A stretch of DNA of 64,000 nt from Gordonibacter sp. Marseille-P4307 (GCF_900604965.1 NZ_UWPD01000001.1:310001-374000), one strand, 5' to 3'; shown: positions 8,377 to 19,122, numbered from the stretch's first letter. Notes: a model not told the origin generated them from the sequence alone. A program made the numbers and translations.

Positions 8377-9681
8377 CTAGCGCGCCGCCGCCACGCGGAA
8401 GCCCTCGCGCGCCGCATCGACAAGCGCGCAAACCTGCTCGTCGGTGTGAGCCGCCGAAAGGAACAGCGCCTCGAACTGGCTGGGCGCTATGAGCATGCCC
8501 GCATCCAGCACCGCACGGAAGTACGCCGCGAACGCCTCGCGGTCGCTTCGGGCAGCCGTCTTCCAGTTGACAACCGGCCCCTCGGTGAAAAACACCGTGG
8601 TCACGCTGCCGAAGTTGTTAACGCACGCAGCGATGCCAACCTCGCGCGCCGCCGCGCGCAGGCCCTCCGTCAGAAGCGCTCCCTTGCGCTCGAGCTCGGG
8701 ATACAGCGTCGCGGCATGGGCCTGCAGCTTGGTAAGCTGGGCCAGACCGGCCTCCATCGCAACCGGATTGCCCGACAGCGTACCGGCCTGGTACACCGGA
8801 CCGGCAGGGGCAAGCTTCTGCATGAAGCGCTCCTTGCCGGCCACGCACCCCACCGGGAATCCGCCGCCGATGATCTTGCCGAACGTGCACAGGTCCGCAT
8901 CGATGCCCAGCTTCTCCTGAGCACCGCCCAAGGCAACCCTGAACCCGGTAATGACCTCGTCGAATATGAGAAGCGCACCGAACTCGTCGCATAGGGCGCG
9001 CAAACCCTCGTGGAAGCCGGCGGCGGGAGGAACCACGCCCATGTTTCCGCTCACGGGTTCGACGATCACGCAGGCAACCTGATCGGGGGCCGCCTCGAAC
9101 AACGCGCGCACGGAATCGAGATCGTTGTACGTGGCGATCATGGTGTCGCCGGCGGTTGCGGCCGTCACGCCCGGCGTGTCGGGAATGCCCAGCGTCGCCA
9201 CTCCGCTTCCCGCGCTCACCAGCAGCGAGTCGCTGTGTCCATGGTAGTTGCCCTCGAACTTGACGATCTTGTCGCGTCCCGTGCAGCCTCGCGCGAGGCG
9301 GATGGCCGTCATGGTGGCCTCGGTGCCCGACGACACCATGCGCACTTCCTCGACGCCGGGAACCAGCTCGCATATCTTGTCGGCAAGCTTCAGCTCGGCC
9401 TCGCAGGGAGCGCCGAACGACACGCCCCTCTCAAGCTGCGCCCGCACCGCCCCGATAACGTCCTCGTCACCGTGACCGAAGATCATAGGACCCCACGAGC
9501 AGATGAAATCGACGTACTCGTTGCCGTCGATATCCCACACCAGGCTTCCCTTGGCACGATCGTAGAACACCGGATCGCAGCCCACGCTTCCGAAAGCGCG
9601 CACCGGAGAGTTCACCCCTCCGGGAATGACCTGCGATGCGCGGGCAAACGCCTGAGAAGACTTCGAATGATCAAGTGACAT
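8377..9681 (-). CDS. hemL: Glutamate-1-semialdehyde 2,1-aminomutase
   Basis: A 434-residue class III PLP enzyme that converts glutamate 1-semialdehyde into 5-aminolevulinate, step two of the C5 route. Visible family motifs are [27 protein letters not shown], the PLP-binding FDEVITGFR and the catalytic lysine in [13 protein letters not shown]. Length is standard. ATG at 9681 has GAAAGGA before it. It is the last protein gene of the haem operon, 38 bp after the AhbD fusion gene. Confidence 0.97.
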
Positions 9682-9719: not shown

Positions 9720-12137
9720 TTACCCCTCAAAATACCTCATCGAAACTTTCTTGTACTCCCCCGTCGTCAAAAGAGCCTCGGACGCGTCGACGGAGATCCC
9801 CGCCTCGTCAAGCGCCCGCCTCATATCGGCGATCTGCCGGCTGAGATCCTCGGGCGTGCGCGCGTGGGTCATAGCGTACAGGTTGTAGCGCCACGTGTCG
9901 GCCTTCCTGCGAGCATAGCAATGGGTAACGTGCTCGGACTGCGCCAAGATGCGCCCTGCGGCATCGGTCTGGTCGTCCGGGACGTCCCATACCGTCATGG
10001 AATTATGCGACACGCCCATGACCTGGTGGCGAACCATCGCACCCACGCGCCTGATGGTCTTGGAGGCCAGCCACCCCCCCATCCGCGCGGCAACGTCTTG
10101 CTCGGTAATGTCGGTGCGCCCCAGATTCCGGGCGATACGCTTGACGATGGTGGAAAGCGGACGTTCGTCGAGGGCTCCGTCAACCGTGTGCAGGATGTCT
10201 CCTTGGGCCCATCGAACGATCTCGATGTTCACCGGATCGTCCGCATCAAACGGAAGGGGGTCGCACACCGGGACGGTCAAGACAGGGGCCTCTTTCTTGG
10301 GGGCAAGCCCTTCACGCAGCTCGCCCTGGGGAAGGGAGCCGGCCGGACCGTCGCCTTGCCGCCCGTCGTGCAGCAGTTTGGCATCCGCGAACCGCGTGGG
10401 CTTGCGCCGCACACGCGCATTGCCGTCCGACGACTTGAAGTTCACGCGGATCTTGTATTTTTTCGTGGACGGCAGATCCAGCACGTCGGCAACGCCGGTG
10501 CGCTGCGAGATCTCGACCAGCATGCGCTGGCGCTCTTCGACCGAACGAGCGATGACCGTAAACCACAGGTTGTAGTGGTTATCCCGACCGTAATTATGGG
10601 TGACCTGAGGATATTCGGACACGATAGCGGCGGCGGTCGCAAGCTCCCGCTCGCCCCCGGGCACCGAAAGAGCGCAAAGAGACGAGGCGTATCCCAGTTT
10701 GGGCGAGTTGAACGACGCGCCGACGCGTCGGATCTTCCCCGACTTGTACAGAGACGACACGGCTTCGATCACGCCGTCTCGCCTCAATTCAAGCGCCTTC
10801 GCCAGATCCCCCAAAGGATCGTCCGTCAACGGAAAGCCCTCCTGGATCGCATCGAGCACGCGATCCTGCACGTACTTTTTCGGCTCGTAGGCGCAATAGG
10901 GCTCTTCTTCCAGGTAGTCGCCGTACAGAGCCAAGGCGCGCGCACGGCACCCGCCGCACACCCCCTTGTATTCGCAGGCGCCGCACTTGCCCTTCAGCCG
11001 ATCGTAATGACGCAGGTCGTCGAACACCGGAGAATGGGTCCAGATCTCGGAGAAGGGCGTTTCTTTGACGTTTCCAAGGTTCATGTCAAAATATCCGCAC
11101 GGCTGCACCTCGCCCGTATGGCTGATGAACACGAAGGTGATGCCGCCCAGGCAACCGCGCGTCATGGCCTCCATGCCATAGGTCTCGGGCGTCACCTTGA
11201 TGCCCTGCTTGGCAGCCTGTTGGCGCAAAATGCGATAGTACTGCGGCGAGTCGGTGGGCTTGAAGTGCAGAGGAGAGGTCTGCTGGCGCTCGAAGGCCCA
11301 CAGCAGCACCTCCTCGTACTCGTCGGGCGTGAGCTCGACATCGATAAGGTCTTCTCCGCGTCCCGTGGGAACCAGAAGGAACGGATGGAACGCGACGGCG
11401 CCGGTTTCAAGCGCCAGGTCGTGCAACTCGTCGACCATCTCGTTGTTCATCTTGGTGACGGTGGTGTTGATCTGGACCCCCACCCCGTACTTCTGCATGT
11501 TCTTGATGCCCTCGAGGGTTTCCCGGAAAGCCCCCTCTTTGCCGCGGAACCTGTCCTGACCCTCGGCGTCGGGGAAGTCCAGCGACACCGACACGCGCGG
11601 AATGCCGTGCCGGGCCATCTGAGCCGCCACCTCCTCGGTGATGAGGGTTCCGTTCGTGCCGATTACCGGATGGAGGCCCTTCTCGTTCGCGTAATCAATG
11701 ATGTCCCAGATATCGGGGCGCATAAGGGGCTCTCCGCCCGTCACGATGAGAATGGGATCGGTGATGCTGGCGATGTCGTCGATAACCGCCTTGCATTCGT
11801 CCAACGTCAACTCGCCGGGATACGGTTCGCAATGCGCAGCGGCGCGGCAGTGGTCGCACGCCAGGTTGCACGAACGGGTGATCTCCCAAGCCACGATGCG
11901 CGGCGCCTTGATGCCCGTACGCTCTTCGTACGCGCGAGCCGCCGGACCCGCTCCCGGTCGGTAGCTGCGGCGCGCCGTGTTGTCGCCCGGAGCCGCTGCT
12001 CCGGGATGCCCGCCGGGATGGCCTCCCGGACGTCCCGTCGGATGCCCCCCGGGATGACCCGAGACATGCGCCCTTTCGGCCCCCCGGGCCAAAGGGGCGT
12101 GGGCGCCGCAGCACGCGGCGCTGTGTTCGTGGGCCAT
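9720..12137 (-). CDS. Three-activity fusion: haem b synthase (AhbD, radical SAM) plus two siroheme decarboxylase domains
   Basis: An 805-residue protein with four parts. Residues 1-60: a His/Gly/Pro-rich tail with GHPGGHP repeats and a CC pair. Residues about 78-420: a radical SAM enzyme with the cluster motif C90-NLA-C94-DH-C97 and a C-terminal cysteine set (C329, C347, C385, C388, C394, C397, C415) for auxiliary Fe-S clusters, matching AhbD, which converts Fe-coproporphyrin III to haem b. Residues about 426-568 and 635-805: two AsnC/Lrp-like siroheme decarboxylase domains of the AhbA/AhbB (NirD-like) family, each with an HTH-like start and a THNYGR or THCYAR motif. In characterised systems these are three separate proteins. 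It lies 1 bp after hemB. Confidence 0.88.
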   Translation of the reverse strand: MAHEHSAACCGAHAPLARGAERAHVSGHPGGHPTGRPGGHPGGHPGAAAPGDNTARRSYRPGAGPAARAYEERTGIKAPRIVAWEITRSCNLACDHCRAAAHCEPYPGELTLDECKAVIDDIASITDPILIVTGGEPLMRPDIWDIIDYANEKGLHPVIGTNGTLITEEVAAQMARHGIPRVSVSLDFPDAEGQDRFRGKEGAFRETLEGIKNMQKYGVGVQINTTVTKMNNEMVDELHDLALETGAVAFHPFLLVPTGRGEDLIDVELTPDEYEEVLLWAFERQQTSPLHFKPTDSPQYYRILRQQAAKQGIKVTPETYGMEAMTRGCLGGITFVFISHTGEVQPCGYFDMNLGNVKETPFSEIWTHSPVFDDLRHYDRLKGKCGACEYKGVCGGCRARALALYGDYLEEEPYCAYEPKKYVQDRVLDAIQEGFPLTDDPLGDLAKALELRRDGVIEAVSSLYKSGKIRRVGASFNSPKLGYASSLCALSVPGGERELATAAAIVSEYPQVTHNYGRDNHYNLWFTVIARSVEERQRMLVEISQRTGVADVLDLPSTKKYKIRVNFKSSDGNARVRRKPTRFADAKLLHDGRQGDGPAGSLPQGELREGLAPKKEAPVLTVPVCDPLPFDADDPVNIEIVRWAQGDILHTVDGALDERPLSTIVKRIARNLGRTDITEQDVAARMGGWLASKTIRRVGAMVRHQVMGVSHNSMTVWDVPDDQTDAAGRILAQSEHVTHCYARRKADTWRYNLYAMTHARTPEDLSRQIADMRRALDEAGISVDASEALLTTGEYKKVSMRYFEG

Positions 12138-12138
12138 A

Positions 12139-13131
12139 TCAGTTCCCCTCCGCCAGCCAGCGAGCCGCCTCTTTGGCGTGATACGTGATGATCATGTCGG
12201 CTCCCGCCCGCTTCATCGAAGTCAGAAGCTCGAGCACGACGCGCTTTTCGTCGATCCATCCGTTTGCCGCCGCCGCCTTCACCATCGAGTACTCCCCCGA
12301 CACGTTGTAGGCAACCGTGGGGAAGCGAAGCTCGGATTTCACGCGGCGCAGCACATCCAGATACGACAGCGCCGGCTTGACCATGACGAGGTCGGCGCCT
12401 TCGGCGATGTCGTAAGCTGCCTCTCGAACGCCTTCCTGGGCATTTGCGGGATCCATCTGATATGCGCGACGATCCCCGAACGCAGGCGTCGAGTCGGCCG
12501 CGTCGCGAAACGGGCCGTAGAACCCGCTGGCATACTTCGTAGAGTACGACATGATGGGCACCTGGGAAAAACCCGCCTGATCAAGCGCGCGGCGCATATG
12601 AGCCACGCGGCCATCCATCATGTCGGACGGAGCCACCATGTGCGCACCGGCGCGCGCGTGGCTGACGGCCTCGGCAGCCAGCCATTCGAGCGTGGCATCG
12701 TTATCCACCTCGCCCGCCTCGGTAAGCTTCCCGCAATGCCCGTGGCTGGTGTATTCGCACATGCACACATCGGTGATGATGTGCATGTCGGGCGCCTCGG
12801 CGCGGATGACGCGAACCGCCTCCTGCACGATACCGTGGTCGTCGTAGGCCTCGCTTCCGCACTCGTCCTTATGCGAGGGAAGGCCGAACAGCAGAACCGA
12901 CCGTACGCCCAGACCAAGAAGCTCATCCATCTCGGGCTTCAGCATGTCGAGCGAAAGCTGGTGCACCCCGGGCATCGATGAGATCTCATCGCGCAGGCCT
13001 TTGCCCGGTTTGACGAACAGCGGATAGATGAAGTCGCGCACAGACAGCTCGGTTTCGCGAATGAACTGGCGAACCGTCTCGTCGGCCCTCATGCGGCGCG
13101 CGCGATAGGCGGGAAACCTGCCGTATTCCAT
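12139..13131 (-). CDS. hemB: Porphobilinogen synthase (5-aminolevulinate dehydratase)
   Basis: A 330-residue enzyme condensing two 5-aminolevulinate molecules to porphobilinogen. It has the cysteine-rich zinc-site segment DVCMCEYTSHGHCGK, and the two active-site lysines in SYSTKYASGFYGPFR and LVMVKPALSYLD. The ATG at 13131 (MEYGRFPAYRARRMR) shares one base with the TAA stop of ahbC, so the genes are coupled. The frame is open further upstream, but that is inside ahbC. Confidence 0.96.
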   Translation of the reverse strand: MEYGRFPAYRARRMRADETVRQFIRETELSVRDFIYPLFVKPGKGLRDEISSMPGVHQLSLDMLKPEMDELLGLGVRSVLLFGLPSHKDECGSEAYDDHGIVQEAVRVIRAEAPDMHIITDVCMCEYTSHGHCGKLTEAGEVDNDATLEWLAAEAVSHARAGAHMVAPSDMMDGRVAHMRRALDQAGFSQVPIMSYSTKYASGFYGPFRDAADSTPAFGDRRAYQMDPANAQEGVREAAYDIAEGADLVMVKPALSYLDVLRRVKSELRFPTVAYNVSGEYSMVKAAAANGWIDEKRVVLELLTSMKRAGADMIITYHAKEAARWLAEGN

Positions 13132-14387
13132 TATCGGACACCCCCTTCGGCAACCGCCTCGCAGGCGCATCCGGCCTTCGATCCTGCGCCTTCGGGCCAC
13201 GCGATCTCCTCGTCGGTGAGGTAGCACGCGGGATCCGACGCCCACAGGTCGCCCGTGGCGGCTTCGGCGCGCACGCGGAAGTTCCCGTTGCAGATGTCCA
13301 ACCAGCGACAGGTCGCGCAGCGGCCCTTCACGAACGGACGCTTGTTCTTCAGGCGATACATCAGCTCGCTTTCAGGCGTGGTGCGACTCACGTCGGTCCA
13401 GATCTCGGAGAACGGGCGATCCTTCACATTGCCGAACGGGAAGTGGCGCCAGAATTGATCGGCGTACACCTCGCCATCCCAGCTCACGCTCGCAATACCC
13501 GCACCGGTCGAGTTGCCCTGGTTCCACTGGAGAAGCTGCAGCACCTCGGCCGCGCGCTGGGGATCTTCCTTCAAAAGCTCCAGATACACGAAAGGACCGT
13601 CGGCATGGTTGTCCACCGTAAGGATCTCGGGGCGGCCGCCGCGATCGAACCACGCGCGCGTGCGATCCATGATGAGTCGCACGGCCTGACGCGTTTCCTC
13701 GTGGCTGAGGTCTTCCTCCATAAGCTCCGAGCCGCGCCCCGTATACACCAGATGGTAGAAGCAGGCGCGGTTGATGCTGTGCTCTTCCATGATGTCGAAC
13801 ACGTCGTCGATCTCGCGCCAATTCAGCTTGTTGATGGTCATGCGCAGGCCCACCTTGATGCCGGCCTCCTGCGCATTGTTCAGACCCTCCATAGACTTGG
13901 CGAACGACCCGGGAACGCCGCGGAACCTATCGTGGGTTTCAGGGCCGCCGTCAAGGGAAACGCCCACGTACGACAAACCCACCTCGGCGAATTCGCGCGC
14001 CAGCTCGGGAGTGATGAGCGTACCGTTGGTCGAGATGACCACGCGCATACCGCGATCCTTCGCATAATGCATGAGCTCGGTAAGATCGTGGCGCACGCAG
14101 GGCTCGCCGCCCGAGAACAGCAGCACCGGCGCGCCGAACGCAGCCAGATCGTCGATCATGGCCTTGGCCTCTTCGGTGGACAGCTCGTCGTAGCGCTGCG
14201 CGTCGGATCCCGCGTAGCAGTGAACGCACTTCAGGTTGCACGTGCGCGTGCAGTTCCACACGACTACCGGCTTCTTGTCCTTGGAAAACTGCAGGAGCTC
14301 GCTGGGGAGCTTCGCCGACATGCGCTGATAGCGCAAGACGTCGGCGGGCTCGACCGCCCCGCAGTACAGTTTGGAAACTCCGATCAT
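13131..14387 (-). CDS. ahbC: 12,18-didecarboxysiroheme deacetylase, radical SAM (AhbC)
   Basis: A 418-residue radical SAM protein starting MIGVSKLYCGAVEPADVLRY, the hallmark start of AhbC. The cluster motif is C50-NLK-C54-VH-C57, followed by FSGGEPCVRHDL and the C-terminal SPASM-like cysteines (GRCATCRWLDICNGN). AhbC removes the two acetate side chains of didecarboxysiroheme to give Fe-coproporphyrin III. It sits between cobA-hemD (1-bp gap) and hemB. NirJ of haem d1 synthesis is a related family, but no other nir genes are here and the operon makes haem, so AhbC is preferred. Confidence 0.9.
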   Translation of the reverse strand: MIGVSKLYCGAVEPADVLRYQRMSAKLPSELLQFSKDKKPVVVWNCTRTCNLKCVHCYAGSDAQRYDELSTEEAKAMIDDLAAFGAPVLLFSGGEPCVRHDLTELMHYAKDRGMRVVISTNGTLITPELAREFAEVGLSYVGVSLDGGPETHDRFRGVPGSFAKSMEGLNNAQEAGIKVGLRMTINKLNWREIDDVFDIMEEHSINRACFYHLVYTGRGSELMEEDLSHEETRQAVRLIMDRTRAWFDRGGRPEILTVDNHADGPFVYLELLKEDPQRAAEVLQLLQWNQGNSTGAGIASVSWDGEVYADQFWRHFPFGNVKDRPFSEIWTDVSRTTPESELMYRLKNKRPFVKGRCATCRWLDICNGNFRVRAEAATGDLWASDPACYLTDEEIAWPEGAGSKAGCACEAVAEGGVR

Positions 14388-14388
14388 G

Positions 14389-16062
14389 CTATACCCCCTT
14401 CGGGCTCGCGCCCGCTCTCTGTTCTTCACCCGGCCGATCGTCGGATGTGAAATGCTCGCACAACGCATCGACCAGGCCCGGGATGGTGAACTCGGCCGCC
14501 TGAGCCGCCACCGTGAGACCCGCCTGCTCGATTGTGTCGCTGGTAATGGGACCGATCGAGAAGATCTCGACACGCCTCAGCAGCGCCCCCGCCGCATCGC
14601 CAAGCGCCTCCACCAGATTGCGCACCGCCGAAGACGATGCGAACGTCACGCCGTCGATGGAGCCCGCTTCGACCAGCGAGGCGAATTCGCGCAGATGCTC
14701 TGGATCCGCCGCCACGGTTCTATACGAGGGAACCACGTCGACCTCGCCGCCGTCTGCGGAAAGCAGCTGCGGAAGCACTTCGCGCGCCTCGAGGGCCCGC
14801 GGTATGAGAACGCGTTGGCCCGAAGCGAACCCCGCGTCGCGCAACGCCCCATGCACCGCCTCGGCACGGTATTCTGCAGGAACCACATCGGCTGCGATGC
14901 CATGCGAACGCAGCTTCGCCGCCGTTGCCGGCCCGATGGCCGCCACGCGGCACCCCGCCAGCGCGCGAGCATCCCGGAAACGAAGCTCCGAACCGCTCAG
15001 TCGATCGAAGAACCGCTCGACCCCGTTTACGCTGGTGAAGATCAGCCAATCGTACGAGTCGAGGCGAGAGAGCGCGTCGTCGAGCGGCTCGAAGCTTTCC
15101 GGGTCCACGATGCTGATGGTGGGCAGCTCGAACACCTCGGCTCCTTGCTCGCGCAGAAGGGAACCGAGGGAGCCGGCCTGTTCGCGCGAACGTGTAACCA
15201 CCAGGCGCTTGCCGAACAGGGGCCGGTCCTCGAACCAGGCGATGCGCTCGCGCAGGGCGGCGACAGAGCCCACGACGATGATCGCCGGAGCTTCGATCCC
15301 CTCTTCACGGGCGCGCCGAGCCGCAGTTTCAAGCGTCGCGACGCAGGTCCTCTGGCGCGTGGTGGTTCCCCACTGAACCAGCGCGACCGGTATATCGGAT
15401 GGAGCACCGCATTCCGCAAGCTTCTCGGATATCAGGGAAAGATTGCGCACGCCCATGTAAAAGCACACGGTGGCCCCCCGCTTCACCAGCCCCGCCAGCG
15501 AGGGCCAATCCAGCGTCGAGGCATCCTTGGAAGGATCCTCGTTTCCCGTAACCAGCGTGACAGACGTGGAGACACCGCGATGAGTGACCGGAATACCCGC
15601 ATAGGCGCAAGCGGCGATTCCGCTGGTCACACCGGGTACGACCTCGAAGGGAATACCGGCCTCGGCAAGAGCCAGAGCCTCTTCCCCGCCGCGTCCGAAC
15701 ACAAACGGATCGCCGCCCTTCAACCGAACGACGGACGGCACCGCCTGAGCACAGCGCCCCTCGGCCCTGCGGGGAACGCCCCGGACGGCCTCGTCCCGCA
15801 TGCGGCGCTCCAGCTCGCGCGCCTTCTCGACGAGGATACGGTTGATGTCGTCCTGACCGATGTGCTTCTCGAAGCCCTTCTTGCCGACAAACACCAGCTC
15901 GGCATCGGGGCGGACGTGCTCGAGCAGCCGATCGCTGGATAGATAGTCGTACACCACCACGTCGGCGCCCTGAAGCAGCGAAAGTCCGCGCACGCTCATG
16001 AGGCCCGGATCTCCCGGACCCGCGCCGACAAGGTACACGCAAACGGATTCCGGCTTGCTCAC
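14389..16062 (-). CDS. Fused uroporphyrinogen-III C-methyltransferase and uroporphyrinogen-III synthase
   Basis: A 557-residue two-domain protein (CobA-HemD). The N-terminal half is a SUMT with VYLVGAGPGDPGLMSVRG, VVRLKGGDPFVFGRGGEE and PGVTSGIAACAYAGIPVTHR; it makes precorrin-2. There is an insertion of about a dozen residues before VVRLKGGDP. The C-terminal half (from about residue 265, RPLFGKRLVVTRSREQA) is HemD, closing the tetrapyrrole ring, with FTSVNGVERFF and the terminal TFASSSAVRNL segment. Start is GTG at 16062, which overlaps the hemC stop as GTGA. Such fusions are common in Gram-positive bacteria. Confidence 0.94.
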   Translation of the reverse strand: MSKPESVCVYLVGAGPGDPGLMSVRGLSLLQGADVVVYDYLSSDRLLEHVRPDAELVFVGKKGFEKHIGQDDINRILVEKARELERRMRDEAVRGVPRRAEGRCAQAVPSVVRLKGGDPFVFGRGGEEALALAEAGIPFEVVPGVTSGIAACAYAGIPVTHRGVSTSVTLVTGNEDPSKDASTLDWPSLAGLVKRGATVCFYMGVRNLSLISEKLAECGAPSDIPVALVQWGTTTRQRTCVATLETAARRAREEGIEAPAIIVVGSVAALRERIAWFEDRPLFGKRLVVTRSREQAGSLGSLLREQGAEVFELPTISIVDPESFEPLDDALSRLDSYDWLIFTSVNGVERFFDRLSGSELRFRDARALAGCRVAAIGPATAAKLRSHGIAADVVPAEYRAEAVHGALRDAGFASGQRVLIPRALEAREVLPQLLSADGGEVDVVPSYRTVAADPEHLREFASLVEAGSIDGVTFASSSAVRNLVEALGDAAGALLRRVEIFSIGPITSDTIEQAGLTVAAQAAEFTIPGLVDALCEHFTSDDRPGEEQRAGASPKGV

Positions 16063-17027
16063 AGACCCACGCTCGCTTTGACGCGATCCATGATCTCGCA
16101 AGCGCCCTGTTCGCACAGCGCTTCGAGTGCCATCTCCGCCAGCTCGGCGGGATCGCTCCGGCTGATGATGCCCGCGCGCTCCATATGAACGCGCGCCATC
16201 TCCGAACCGTCGAGCGAAGAGACGAAGGCGTCCAGCACAAGGGTCTGCTGGTCGGCCGGACCCTCCCAACGGATGTAGGCGCCCAGCGGAACCTGGCAGC
16301 CCCCCTCGAGACGGGAAAGGATGATGCGCTCGGCATCGACGCAGGCCATCGTGGGCTCATGCGAGATATCGGCAAGCGCCGCGAGGGTGCGTTCGTCGTC
16401 GGCGCGCGCCTCTATGCCGACGGCCCCCTGCCCCACCGCGGGAATCATGTCCTCGATCGGAATATAGGAGCGAATGCGGTCTTCCCAGCCCATGCGCACG
16501 ATACCCGAAACAGCCAGAACCGCGCCCTCGTAATGGGAGCCTTCGGCCTTGGCGAGGCGGGTGTCGAGGTTGCCGCGGATCTCGCTGGGAACCAACTGCG
16601 GATACCGCGCGCGCAGCTGAGCGGCACGACGCAGCGACCCGGTTCCGATGCGCGCGCCCTCGGGAACGTCGGCCAAACATCCAACCTGCGCCAACCGGGG
16701 ACCGCACACCAGCGCGTCGCGAGCATCGGCACGCGGCAGCATCGCCGCCAGAACGCACCCTTCGGGAAGCGCGCTGGGAACGTCTTTCATGGAATGGACG
16801 CACATATCGATATCGCCCGCCAGAAGCTGGGTTTCGATCTCTTTAGTGAACAGGCCTTTATCGCCAATCTTGGACAAAGGGACATCCAGAATGCGATCGC
16901 CCGTCGTCTTGATGACCCGCACATCGACCTCGCGTGCGGGATCCTGCGCTCGCAGCGCATCGGCAACCGCATGCGCTTGCCACAGCGCCAAACCGCTGCC
17001 GCGGGTTCCGATCACGAAATCAGCCAC
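16059..17027 (-). CDS. hemC: Hydroxymethylbilane synthase
   Basis: A 322-residue porphobilinogen deaminase with IGTRGSGLALWQA at the start, VHSMKDVPSALP, GTGSLRRAAQLRA, and the cysteine that carries the dipyrromethane cofactor in LEGGCQVPLGAY. It links four porphobilinogens. The GTG start at 17027 overlaps the hemA TAG by one base (TAGTG). Length and motifs are standard. Confidence 0.96.
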   Translation of the reverse strand: MADFVIGTRGSGLALWQAHAVADALRAQDPAREVDVRVIKTTGDRILDVPLSKIGDKGLFTKEIETQLLAGDIDMCVHSMKDVPSALPEGCVLAAMLPRADARDALVCGPRLAQVGCLADVPEGARIGTGSLRRAAQLRARYPQLVPSEIRGNLDTRLAKAEGSHYEGAVLAVSGIVRMGWEDRIRSYIPIEDMIPAVGQGAVGIEARADDERTLAALADISHEPTMACVDAERIILSRLEGGCQVPLGAYIRWEGPADQQTLVLDAFVSSLDGSEMARVHMERAGIISRSDPAELAEMALEALCEQGACEIMDRVKASVGL

Positions 17028-18454
17028 TATTCCCCCGTTCTCTTCCCGATATTCTCGACCATGCGATAGCGCTCGTCGGGCTCGCCGTCGCGGCGACGCT
17101 CGTGCATCGAGCACCCTTCCCCCCGAAAGCACGAGGGATCCTTGCAGTGGCCGCACGCCGTCCCGGGAGGCATGGAGTCGAGACCGAACAGGTATCGCGC
17201 GGAACTGGTGTAGTAAAACGACTCGCCCGTCTTCGCCTCCTTGCGCAACCGGATGATCGGGCCATGGAGAATCTTGTTGGCGATAGCGGAGCCGAACGCC
17301 TCGAACATGGCGGCCTCGTCGGCGGACACCGATTCTCCACGGGCGCTCGCAAGGGCCTTGCAGAGACGCTTGAGCTCCTTCTGCACGGCAATGTCGCCCT
17401 TTTCGTGCATCTCCTTGATGGTGGGCGTCACGCTGCGCTCCTGCATCCACGAGAAGAACTCTTCCCCGGCTTCCTGCACCATGCGCTCGACCTCGCCCAC
17501 AGCCGCCATCCGGCGGGACAGTCCCTCGTCCACGATGGAGGACAGGCGCTCGAGATCGTACAGAAGCACGCCAGGCACATCGCTGCATGCGGGATCGACG
17601 TCGCGCGGAACCGATTCGTCGATAACGACCAGCGGATCGCCTTCGCGCTTGGCCGCGGCGCGCGCCTGGGCAAGGCGGTCGGACTCGACGACGCAGCGCG
17701 GAGCCGACGTCATGCTGAACACCACGTCCGCCGATCCGAGATGCGCATAGCGCTCTGAAAAGGCGCAGTGGCCGATTCCCATCTCTTCGGCCAGATCGCG
17801 GGCGTGCTCGGTCGTGCGCGTCGCAACGGTGATGTCGCGCGCGCCCGCGTCGAGCAGGTAGCCCAAAGCCAAGCGGGCCATCTCGCCTGCGCCCAGCACC
17901 ACGATCTTTCGGTTCTCCAGATCGGGAAACCTCTGCGAGGCCGCCCGGAAGGCGGTTGTGGAAAGGGACACCGAATCAGACCCGATCGCCGTTTCGGTGC
18001 GCACGCGCTTGCCAAGCGATATAGCACCTTTGAACAGGCGCGACAAAACGTCGCCGCACGCGCCGGACGCGACGGCGGCCTCGAAGGCCCGCTTGGTCTG
18101 GCCGAGGATCTGAGCTTCCCCCAGAACCATCGACTCCAGCGAGCACACCACGCGGAACAGATGTCGCGCCGCATCCATGCTGCGCTCGAGGTAGAACGAG
18201 CCCCGATCGAGCTCGGTCACGCCAAGGCGGGCCTTGACGAACGCCTCGAGCGACTCGAGGCCCATACGATCGGTTTTGGCGTCGACGTAGATCTCGGTTC
18301 GGTTGCACGTCGAGAGGATGACCGCCTCGCTGACGCCTTTCAGCGCTGTGATCTCGGACAGGGCTCCGGGTATCTCCCCCGCCGAAAAAGCGATCCTCTC
18401 GCGCGCTTCGATAGGGGCGCTCTTATAGCTTGCACCCACGACTACCAGGCTCAT
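17027..18454 (-). CDS. hemA: Glutamyl-tRNA reductase with Cys-rich C-terminal extension
   Basis: A 475-residue enzyme that reduces Glu-tRNA to glutamate 1-semialdehyde. The catalytic Cys50 lies in STCNRTE; GLGEAQI-type sequence (MVLGEAQILGQ) and the NADPH Rossmann motif VVLGAGEMARLA follow, then the dimerisation helix. The protein is about 50 residues longer than usual: the tail has C434, C437, C442 and C448 (CGHCKDPSC then C), a possible metal, Fe-S or haem-sensing site. ATG at 18454 overlaps the upstream gene stop as ATGA. Confidence 0.95.
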   Translation of the reverse strand: MSLVVVGASYKSAPIEARERIAFSAGEIPGALSEITALKGVSEAVILSTCNRTEIYVDAKTDRMGLESLEAFVKARLGVTELDRGSFYLERSMDAARHLFRVVCSLESMVLGEAQILGQTKRAFEAAVASGACGDVLSRLFKGAISLGKRVRTETAIGSDSVSLSTTAFRAASQRFPDLENRKIVVLGAGEMARLALGYLLDAGARDITVATRTTEHARDLAEEMGIGHCAFSERYAHLGSADVVFSMTSAPRCVVESDRLAQARAAAKREGDPLVVIDESVPRDVDPACSDVPGVLLYDLERLSSIVDEGLSRRMAAVGEVERMVQEAGEEFFSWMQERSVTPTIKEMHEKGDIAVQKELKRLCKALASARGESVSADEAAMFEAFGSAIANKILHGPIIRLRKEAKTGESFYYTSSARYLFGLDSMPPGTACGHCKDPSCFRGEGCSMHERRRDGEPDERYRMVENIGKRTGE

Positions 18455-19122
18455 AGGCCCCGCTCCTCCGCAAGCGGTGCGACCACTTCGTCGTACACCT
18501 GCTCGGGCGTGATCCGCTCGCCTGCGGCGAGGCGATGTTCGATACCTGCCGATCCCACGGCCTCGAACAGCGGCGTGCGCACCGACGCCTCGCCGGGAAT
18601 GCGCTGCTTCACCAGAGAGCGCACCTGGCCGAGCAGGTCGATGTAGTCCTCCCAGTACGCCGGGAACTGGGATTCGAGCGATCGGCGTATCTCGCGCGCG
18701 ACACTGGGGGCCGCCCCTACCGTCGATACGGCGATCTGCAGTTGCCCGCGCCTCATGATGGACGGCACGATGCAGTTGCACAGCGACGGAACGTCCACCA
18801 CGTTCACCAGGATATGGAGCCTGGACGCTTCCTGGAACACCCGTTCGTTCACGCTTTGGCTGGACGTTGCGACAACGGCCAACAGGGCCCCTTCGAGGTC
18901 TCCCTCCTCGTAGGGACGCTCGACAAGCTCGATATCGCCATTCCGGACGAACGATCTGACGAGGTCGGTCGCCTCGGGTGCGATTGCCGTGACGCGCGCG
19001 CCGTACTCGAGCAGCGTTTCGATCTTGCGCTGCGCGACCGCGCCTGCGCCCACGACGACCACCCGCTCTCCATCGAGATGGATGAACAGCGGGTACGGAG
19101 GCTTTGCGCCTTCATATGCCAT
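18451..19122 (-). CDS. Precorrin-2 dehydrogenase / sirohydrochlorin ferrochelatase (Met8/SirC family)
   Basis: A 223-residue protein with the Rossmann motif VVVGAGAVAQRKIETLL, the catalytic-Asp segment ILVNVVDVPSLCN and RRGQLQIAVSTVGAAPSVAREIR, the standard CysG N-terminal/Met8 pattern. It oxidises precorrin-2 to sirohydrochlorin. No separate chelatase gene (SirB/CbiK) is in the operon, so it may also insert iron, as yeast Met8 does; this is inference. It is the first gene of the haem operon, with an ATG at 19122 preceded by AAGGAGAT. Confidence 0.92.
   Translation of the reverse strand: MAYEGAKPPYPLFIHLDGERVVVVGAGAVAQRKIETLLEYGARVTAIAPEATDLVRSFVRNGDIELVERPYEEGDLEGALLAVVATSSQSVNERVFQEASRLHILVNVVDVPSLCNCIVPSIMRRGQLQIAVSTVGAAPSVAREIRRSLESQFPAYWEDYIDLLGQVRSLVKQRIPGEASVRTPLFEAVGSAGIEHRLAAGERITPEQVYDEVVAPLAEERGL

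Follow-up and report, generated by a model that had tools for sequence, protein, structure and literature searches.

Why the first and the last enzymes of the siroheme route to haem should be encoded on a single chain, with the enzyme that acts between them left apart, is the question raised by a gene in the 64,000-nucleotide stretch of Gordonibacter sp. Marseille-P4307 DNA analyzed here (the window). An earlier note on this DNA had placed haem b synthase (AhbD) and both siroheme decarboxylase domains (AhbA and AhbB) on one polypeptide, and domain models confirm that both steps are encoded on one chain, in the order D-A-B, with AhbC encoded separately (Table 1). The ORF opens with an ATG, located one base past the hemB stop and just 3' of a GGAGGGG stretch, and runs to 805 amino acids without internal stop. 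Observed here are the identity of its domains, their intact cluster and catalytic residues, the fold, the conservation and the place in an operon; AhbDAB is very probably a genuine fusion of AhbD with AhbA-AhbB that performs Ahb chemistry on both halves, as judged from homologues of each, that arose from operon neighbors, and that has a modest effect.

Table 1. Features of the ahbDAB locus (positions counted from the first nucleotide of the window, residues from the start of AhbDAB).
Feature	Position	Strand	Basis
ahbDAB fusion gene, 805 aa	9720-12137	-	ORF, domain models, PDB sequence matches, AlphaFold model
N-terminal tail, residues 1-76, His/Gly/Pro-rich with HPGGHPG repeats, mostly predicted disordered	11910-12137	-	Sequence; pLDDT < 50 for residues 1-56
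AhbD radical SAM/SPASM domain, residues 79-419	10881-11903	-	Pfam, NCBIfam, cysteine motifs
D-A junction, residues 415-428	10854-10895	-	Length comparison of fusions; dN/dS
AhbA (siroheme decarboxylase alpha) domain, residues 424-570, H514/Y516/R518 as HXYXR	10428-10868	-	NCBIfam; mapping to 4czd_A and PMC4145669
A-B linker, residues 571-654	10176-10427	-	Alignment of fusions; AlphaFold model
AhbB (siroheme decarboxylase beta) domain, residues 655-805, H739/Y741/R743 and K797	9723-10175	-	NCBIfam; residue mapping
tRNA-Glu(CTC), haem-cluster type, A53/C61 replacing G53-C61	8220-8295	-	tRNA comparison
hemL, glutamate-1-semialdehyde aminomutase	8377-9681	-	NCBIfam
hemB, porphobilinogen synthase; ORF as listed, gene start probably later	12139-13245	-	NCBIfam
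ahbC, 12,18-didecarboxysiroheme deacetylase, separate gene; probable start near 14387	13131-14573	-	TIGR04546, 674 bits (cut-off 650)
cobA-hemD fusion (uroporphyrinogen III methyltransferase/synthase)	14389-16269	-	Pfam, NCBIfam
hemC, porphobilinogen deaminase; listed ORF longer than gene	16059-17588	-	Pfam
hemA, glutamyl-tRNA reductase	17027-18454	-	Pfam, NCBIfam
sirC/met8-like precorrin-2 dehydrogenase	18451-19122	-	NAD_binding_7 and Sirohm_synth_M

Pfam assigns to the protein a Radical_SAM domain (residues 85-241), a SPASM domain (329-388), a NirdL-like HTH (426-470) and two AsnC_trans_reg2 domains, in agreement with the AhbD-like radical SAM core and the two AsnC-like AhbA/AhbB-type domains that the earlier note had described. 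For the C-terminal part, the AhbB model NF040707 scores 195 bits over residues 674-802 (cut-off 125), and the AhbA model NF040708, spanning residues 425-567, reaches 159 bits with the whole protein (cut-off 140) and 133 bits with the A domain alone. For the N-terminal part, the AhbD model TIGR04545 (NCBIfam) is the top radical SAM model over residues 81-419, with 488 bits by hmmscan and 491 bits in the genome search, 9-12 bits below its curated cut-off of 500 bits. Because a stand-alone AhbD from a class relative also falls just short of this threshold (498.9), we attribute the score to lineage distance and consider another function less likely. The score below cut-off, together with the paralogy of AhbD, NirJ and NirJ2, could be taken to indicate a NirJ/NirJ2-type or other porphyrin radical SAM enzyme, e.g., for haem d1. 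This is highly improbable, as TIGR04545 scores 140 bits more on the D domain than the next family, NirJ2, and 288 bits more than NirJ, while the NirJ2 model gives 530 bits with true NirJ2 proteins from related genomes; moreover, the auxiliary cysteine motif is exactly that of Methanosarcina barkeri AhbD, and the haem operon is complete, with the enzymes of another route (UROD and ChdC) absent. A haem d1/NirJ2 identity of the D domain was thus rejected on the model scores and the cluster motif.

All known cluster and catalytic residues of AhbD, AhbA and AhbB are kept in AhbDAB. The radical SAM motif CX3CX2C (C90/C94/C97) is followed by late cysteines at positions 329, 347, 385, 388, 394, 397 and 415, among which C385/C388/C394/C415 form a CX2CX5CX20C motif; M. 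barkeri AhbD (Mbar_A1458) carries the same two motifs, the latter with exactly this spacing (PMC3942049). All ten cysteines of the cluster regions are invariant in an alignment of 19 fusions and 13 stand-alone AhbDs. Both decarboxylase halves hold an HXYXR motif, H514-N-Y-G-R518 in A and H739-C-Y-A-R743 in B. The iron-binding residues His115 and Arg119 of Desulfovibrio desulfuricans AhbA map one to one to H514 and R518, and His98, Tyr100, Arg102 and Lys152 of its AhbB to H739, Y741, R743 and K797, so that all six mechanism residues of this enzyme (4czd/4un1) are shared with AhbDAB; the R102A mutant of D. desulfuricans AhbB is inactive (PMC4145669). In D. desulfuricans, however, AhbA and AhbB are separate subunits of a heterodimer, whereas they form part of a single chain here.

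The predicted fold agrees with these assignments. Sequence matches of AhbDAB in the PDB are to AhbA/AhbB (4czd) and NirDL (4ch7), and no solved AhbD structure was found in PDB searches. In an AlphaFold model built from an alignment of 47 family sequences (mean pLDDT 81.5, pTM 0.66), residues 50-420 align with SPASM-type radical SAM enzymes of the PDB (Z 23-25), and residues 422-805 with NirDL 4ch7 (Z 27.1, 291 residues aligned, rmsd 3.7). Since the latter fold like NirDL, the A and B halves are predicted to pack as an internal pair. Model scores, catalytic residues and fold all identify residues 426-805 as siroheme decarboxylase-like, and the earlier assignment of this part is upheld. NirDL (4ch7/4czc) and the fused archaeal AhbAB likewise have two AsnC/Lrp-like halves per chain with the same fold, but both lack an attached AhbD domain, and NirDL belongs to haem d1 synthesis. 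The auxiliary-cluster region is modeled at pLDDT < 50, both the D and the AB halves being otherwise well modeled, and therefore we claim no orientation of D relative to AB.

The gene is part of a same-strand series in the order sirC/met8, hemA, hemC, cobA-hemD, ahbC, hemB, ahbDAB, hemL, tRNA-Glu. Profile searches found neither uroporphyrinogen decarboxylase (UROD, PF01208) nor ChdC (PF06778) in the genome, and the siroheme route is therefore its likely haem pathway; a use for haem is indicated by the cytochrome c assembly proteins that the genome encodes. Along this route, siroheme would enter the C-terminal AhbA/AhbB pair, where two acetate carboxyls (C12 and C18) would be removed to yield didecarboxysiroheme; the separate AhbC would convert this to iron-coproporphyrin III, which would then return to the N-terminal D half for conversion to haem b by radical SAM chemistry. 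The link between D and AB would most likely have a modest effect, providing 1:1 production and co-location and at most aiding assembly with AhbC. Two further observations concern the haem genes of this genome. A full ferrochelatase homologue (286 bits; L187:7073-8107, + strand, around position 1183100 of C2) lies away from the haem cluster in this genome devoid of UROD and ChdC. Past its dimerization domain, HemA continues for about 45 C-terminal residues that include a Cys-rich stretch, CGHCKDPSCFRGEGC.

A survey of related genomes established the D-A-B architecture well beyond the window. An AhbD of the AhbDAB type was found in 31 of 138 family genomes; among the loci read in these, about 18 have a single D-A-B ORF (truncated by the end of a contig in two cases), and in about 10 ahbD and ahbAB are adjoining genes. 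Two more D-A-B fusions occur in another family of the same order, and a named genome collection yielded 18 fused loci among its 80 best, with the isolates Berryella wangjianweii, Slackia exigua ATCC 700122, Hugonella massiliensis and Coriobacteriales DNF00809 among the carriers. The fused ORF is common to about 20 Coriobacteriales genomes. This recurrence, isolates included, bears on a sequencing error of the kind the earlier note had considered, i.e., an assembly or frameshift artefact joining two genes. Such an origin is next to impossible and was ruled out by recurrence and selection: the whole ORF is under purifying selection in a codon-level analysis, and dN/dS is 0.03-0.06 at the D-A junction (residues 410-430, window compared with its nearest relatives).

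Outside the order Coriobacteriales, AhbD is stand-alone in every class member read. Where ahbAB lies next to a stand-alone ahbD, the A domain starts about 60-160 bases from the D domain in nearly all class loci read. As class relatives keep a separate ahbD, often directly upstream of ahbAB, the fusion most likely arose by the joining of operon neighbors. Some loci depart from the usual gene content. Eggerthellaceae clusters of the form ahbC-hemB-ahbAB-hemL have no ahbD (L070:289-1293, L071-L074); a NirJ2-like gene, which scores 530 bits with TIGR04055 in L070, is located some kilobases off, and NirJ2 may perform the last haem step in these genomes. In several rumen genomes of one genus (L041, L048, also L051, L062 and L064), the locus consists of ahbC and ahbDAB alone, the stretch read being otherwise free of hem genes; L041 and L048 have, close to this locus, the cytochrome c haem delivery genes ccmE and ccmF. 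A stand-alone siroheme-to-haem pair is possible in these rumen genomes.

In a tree of the D domain, the Coriobacteriales fusions and three genomes with split genes form one clade (support 100/100), with the three split genomes nested inside the fused clade at 98/94, a pattern that reads as one gain of the fusion followed by one later fission. Close relatives, these three among them, have split genes in the same operon, which argues that the pathway can probably do without the covalent link. Since a tree that groups the fusions to the exclusion of the split three was not rejected by an AU test (p 0.165), dispensability of the fusion is likely, short of proof. One of the nested split genomes (G128) has a single in-frame TAA followed by GTG; the other two have TAATG and TGATG overlaps. 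Such tight spacing in split relatives, the nested split clade and the occurrence of fused and split forms within single genera would all be expected if the fusion were neutral, an in-frame join of close, translationally coupled genes that drifts between the two states. We regard pure drift as possible, if somewhat doubtful, given that a deep clade has retained the fused state, with a junction that is constant and under strong purifying selection. A genuine fusion of operon neighbors with a modest effect accounts for our observations better in our judgment.

The junction itself deserves attention. One D-A junction length is shared by 17 of the 18 Coriobacteriales fusions compared, while the A-B linker can be as short as 38 or as long as 205 residues; this combination hints at a structural role of the junction beyond mere tethering. 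In G123 (L055:1-2472), about 80 extra residues, with HPNGHPGHDG repeats, are inserted exactly at the otherwise fixed-length junction. Another variant was found in a rumen genome not identified as Coriobacteriia (RUG14528, L127:5905-9203), in which a D-A-B fusion directly overlaps ahbC amid glycoside hydrolase genes. Its D-A junction has 10 residues, compared to 14 in the others, and its AhbB motif is HCVLR in place of HCYxR. The tree places it with the fused Coriobacteriales (98), and placement outside was not rejected by the AU test (p 0.474), so that this gene may derive either from a separate fusion or from transfer.

The constant junction is also what could be expected if AhbDAB bound AhbC in a channeling complex, in which the iron tetrapyrrole would pass from AB to AhbC to D without release, labile intermediates would be shielded, and the fixed D-A junction would set the geometry. 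The rumen loci reduced to ahbC and ahbDAB near ccmE and ccmF, as well as the tight hold of AhbA/B on their product (PMC4145669), would fit such a complex. Still, we consider it rather unlikely: the enzyme left out of the fusion is the middle one, relatives, including the three that nest among the fused genomes, have split genes in this operon, and the structural model gives no confident arrangement of D and AB (pTM 0.66, cluster region at pLDDT < 50). Channeling of an obligate kind, in particular, is unlikely because AhbC stays separate and split relatives exist. The two effects suggested in the earlier note, shuttling of intermediates in a complex or the holding of a labile haem precursor, are possible ones. 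Alternatively, the AhbAB half could act as a feedback sensor that binds haem b made by AhbD, with product occupancy shutting off siroheme entry through the tether. Haem does copurify with AhbA/B of M. barkeri and Desulfovibrio vulgaris, and the haem redox state alters the activity of the M. barkeri enzyme (PMC4145669); the HXYXR histidines are retained in both halves of AhbDAB. Separate AhbA/B bind haem too, however, which leaves the fusion unexplained and renders a sensor improbable. We therefore favor a fusion with intact Ahb chemistry and a modest benefit.

The earlier note had contrasted the fused gene with separate AhbA, AhbB and AhbD in characterized archaea and sulfate reducers. For archaea, this holds in M. 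barkeri, where AhbD (Mbar_A1458), AhbA (A1459) and AhbB (A1460) are three separate proteins with consecutive locus numbers (PMC3942049), but not more generally: most archaea that make haem have AhbA and AhbB as a single protein (PMC3942049, PMC4145669), and a 2024 archaeal fusion survey lists, as its cluster 36.2, a fusion of ahbAB and ahbD from five Methanomicrobia assemblies (PMC11237513). Because of this record, the joining of ahbAB with ahbD is not unprecedented. By the survey's description, the Methanomicrobia proteins combine siroheme decarboxylase and AhbD in one protein as in Coriobacteriales; they differ in being archaeal, the Coriobacteriales fusion being bacterial, of the order D-A-B and found in a defined clade. 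Our scan of a contig collection for fusions returned nearly only Coriobacteriia, and the archaeal fusions were not among the recovered loci. Coriobacteriales ahbDAB is thus a new bacterial, clade-wide case of a fusion kind already recorded in archaea, and it is conserved within a single group of actinobacteria from the gut and mouth. A literature search found no paper linking Coriobacteriia, Eggerthella or Slackia with the siroheme haem pathway, and the loci described here document this route, fused and split, across gut, oral and rumen Coriobacteriales. For a pathway with oxygen-sensitive, hard-to-handle intermediates, AhbDAB provides a naturally linked enzyme pair that would allow AhbAB and AhbD to be produced jointly, and the split relatives offer a clean test of whether linking non-consecutive steps helps.

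The tRNA-Glu gene at the end of the series may be more novel than the fusion. In 20 of the clusters read, hemL is followed on its strand by a tRNA-Glu gene, at a distance of 7-170 bases in 19 of these, and the linked gene belongs to a distinct tRNA-Glu family (loci with this tRNA family: window, L038, L040, L042-L047, L052, L056, L059, L070-L074, L087 and L251-L276). When the family was searched with the linked tRNA, close matches came from 26 of 137 genomes, each with ahb genes, and the other genomes gave distant matches only. Most ahb genomes without the linked tRNA have no hem genes beside ahb or a locus at a contig end; the exceptions are G033 and G034, where hemL is present. U33, which is nearly universal in decoding tRNAs, is missing in 14 of the 26 linked copies, and A53 replaces G53 in 23, each copy departing at one or both positions. 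U33 and G53 were both kept in all 29 ordinary tRNA-Glu(TTC) genes, and the two other tRNA-Glu genes of the Gordonibacter genome (TTC and CTC) have the ordinary U33 and G53-C61. An A53-U61 pair is present in the chloroplast tRNA-Glu, which is used for 5-aminolevulinate. These features suggest that the linked tRNA-Glu is specialized for 5-aminolevulinate synthesis. As a tentative but serious possibility, the haem cluster could encode its own haem-dedicated tRNA-Glu, one that would be charged with glutamate and read by glutamyl-tRNA reductase and would be poor or inactive in decoding. Since the copy in the window keeps U33, loss of decoding is not to be assumed for it. Coxiella burnetii has a second tRNA-Glu(CUC) for which a role in haem synthesis has been proposed (PMC5423948); our literature search for hemL-linked or A53-bearing tRNA-Glu found nothing relevant. 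If such a role holds true, the cluster would be self-sufficient for haem, starting with a tRNA of its own and ending at haem b, and would join the first and the last enzymes of the siroheme route; the linked tRNA could make it testable whether bacteria reserve a tRNA for tetrapyrrole synthesis.

Finally, the His/Gly/Pro-rich N-terminal tail is a class-wide feature of Coriobacteriia AhbD, fused or split (e.g., L107, L113, L119 and L144), with HPGGHPG repeats and up to about 30 His residues in L107, and this tail is possibly involved in metal or haem binding.
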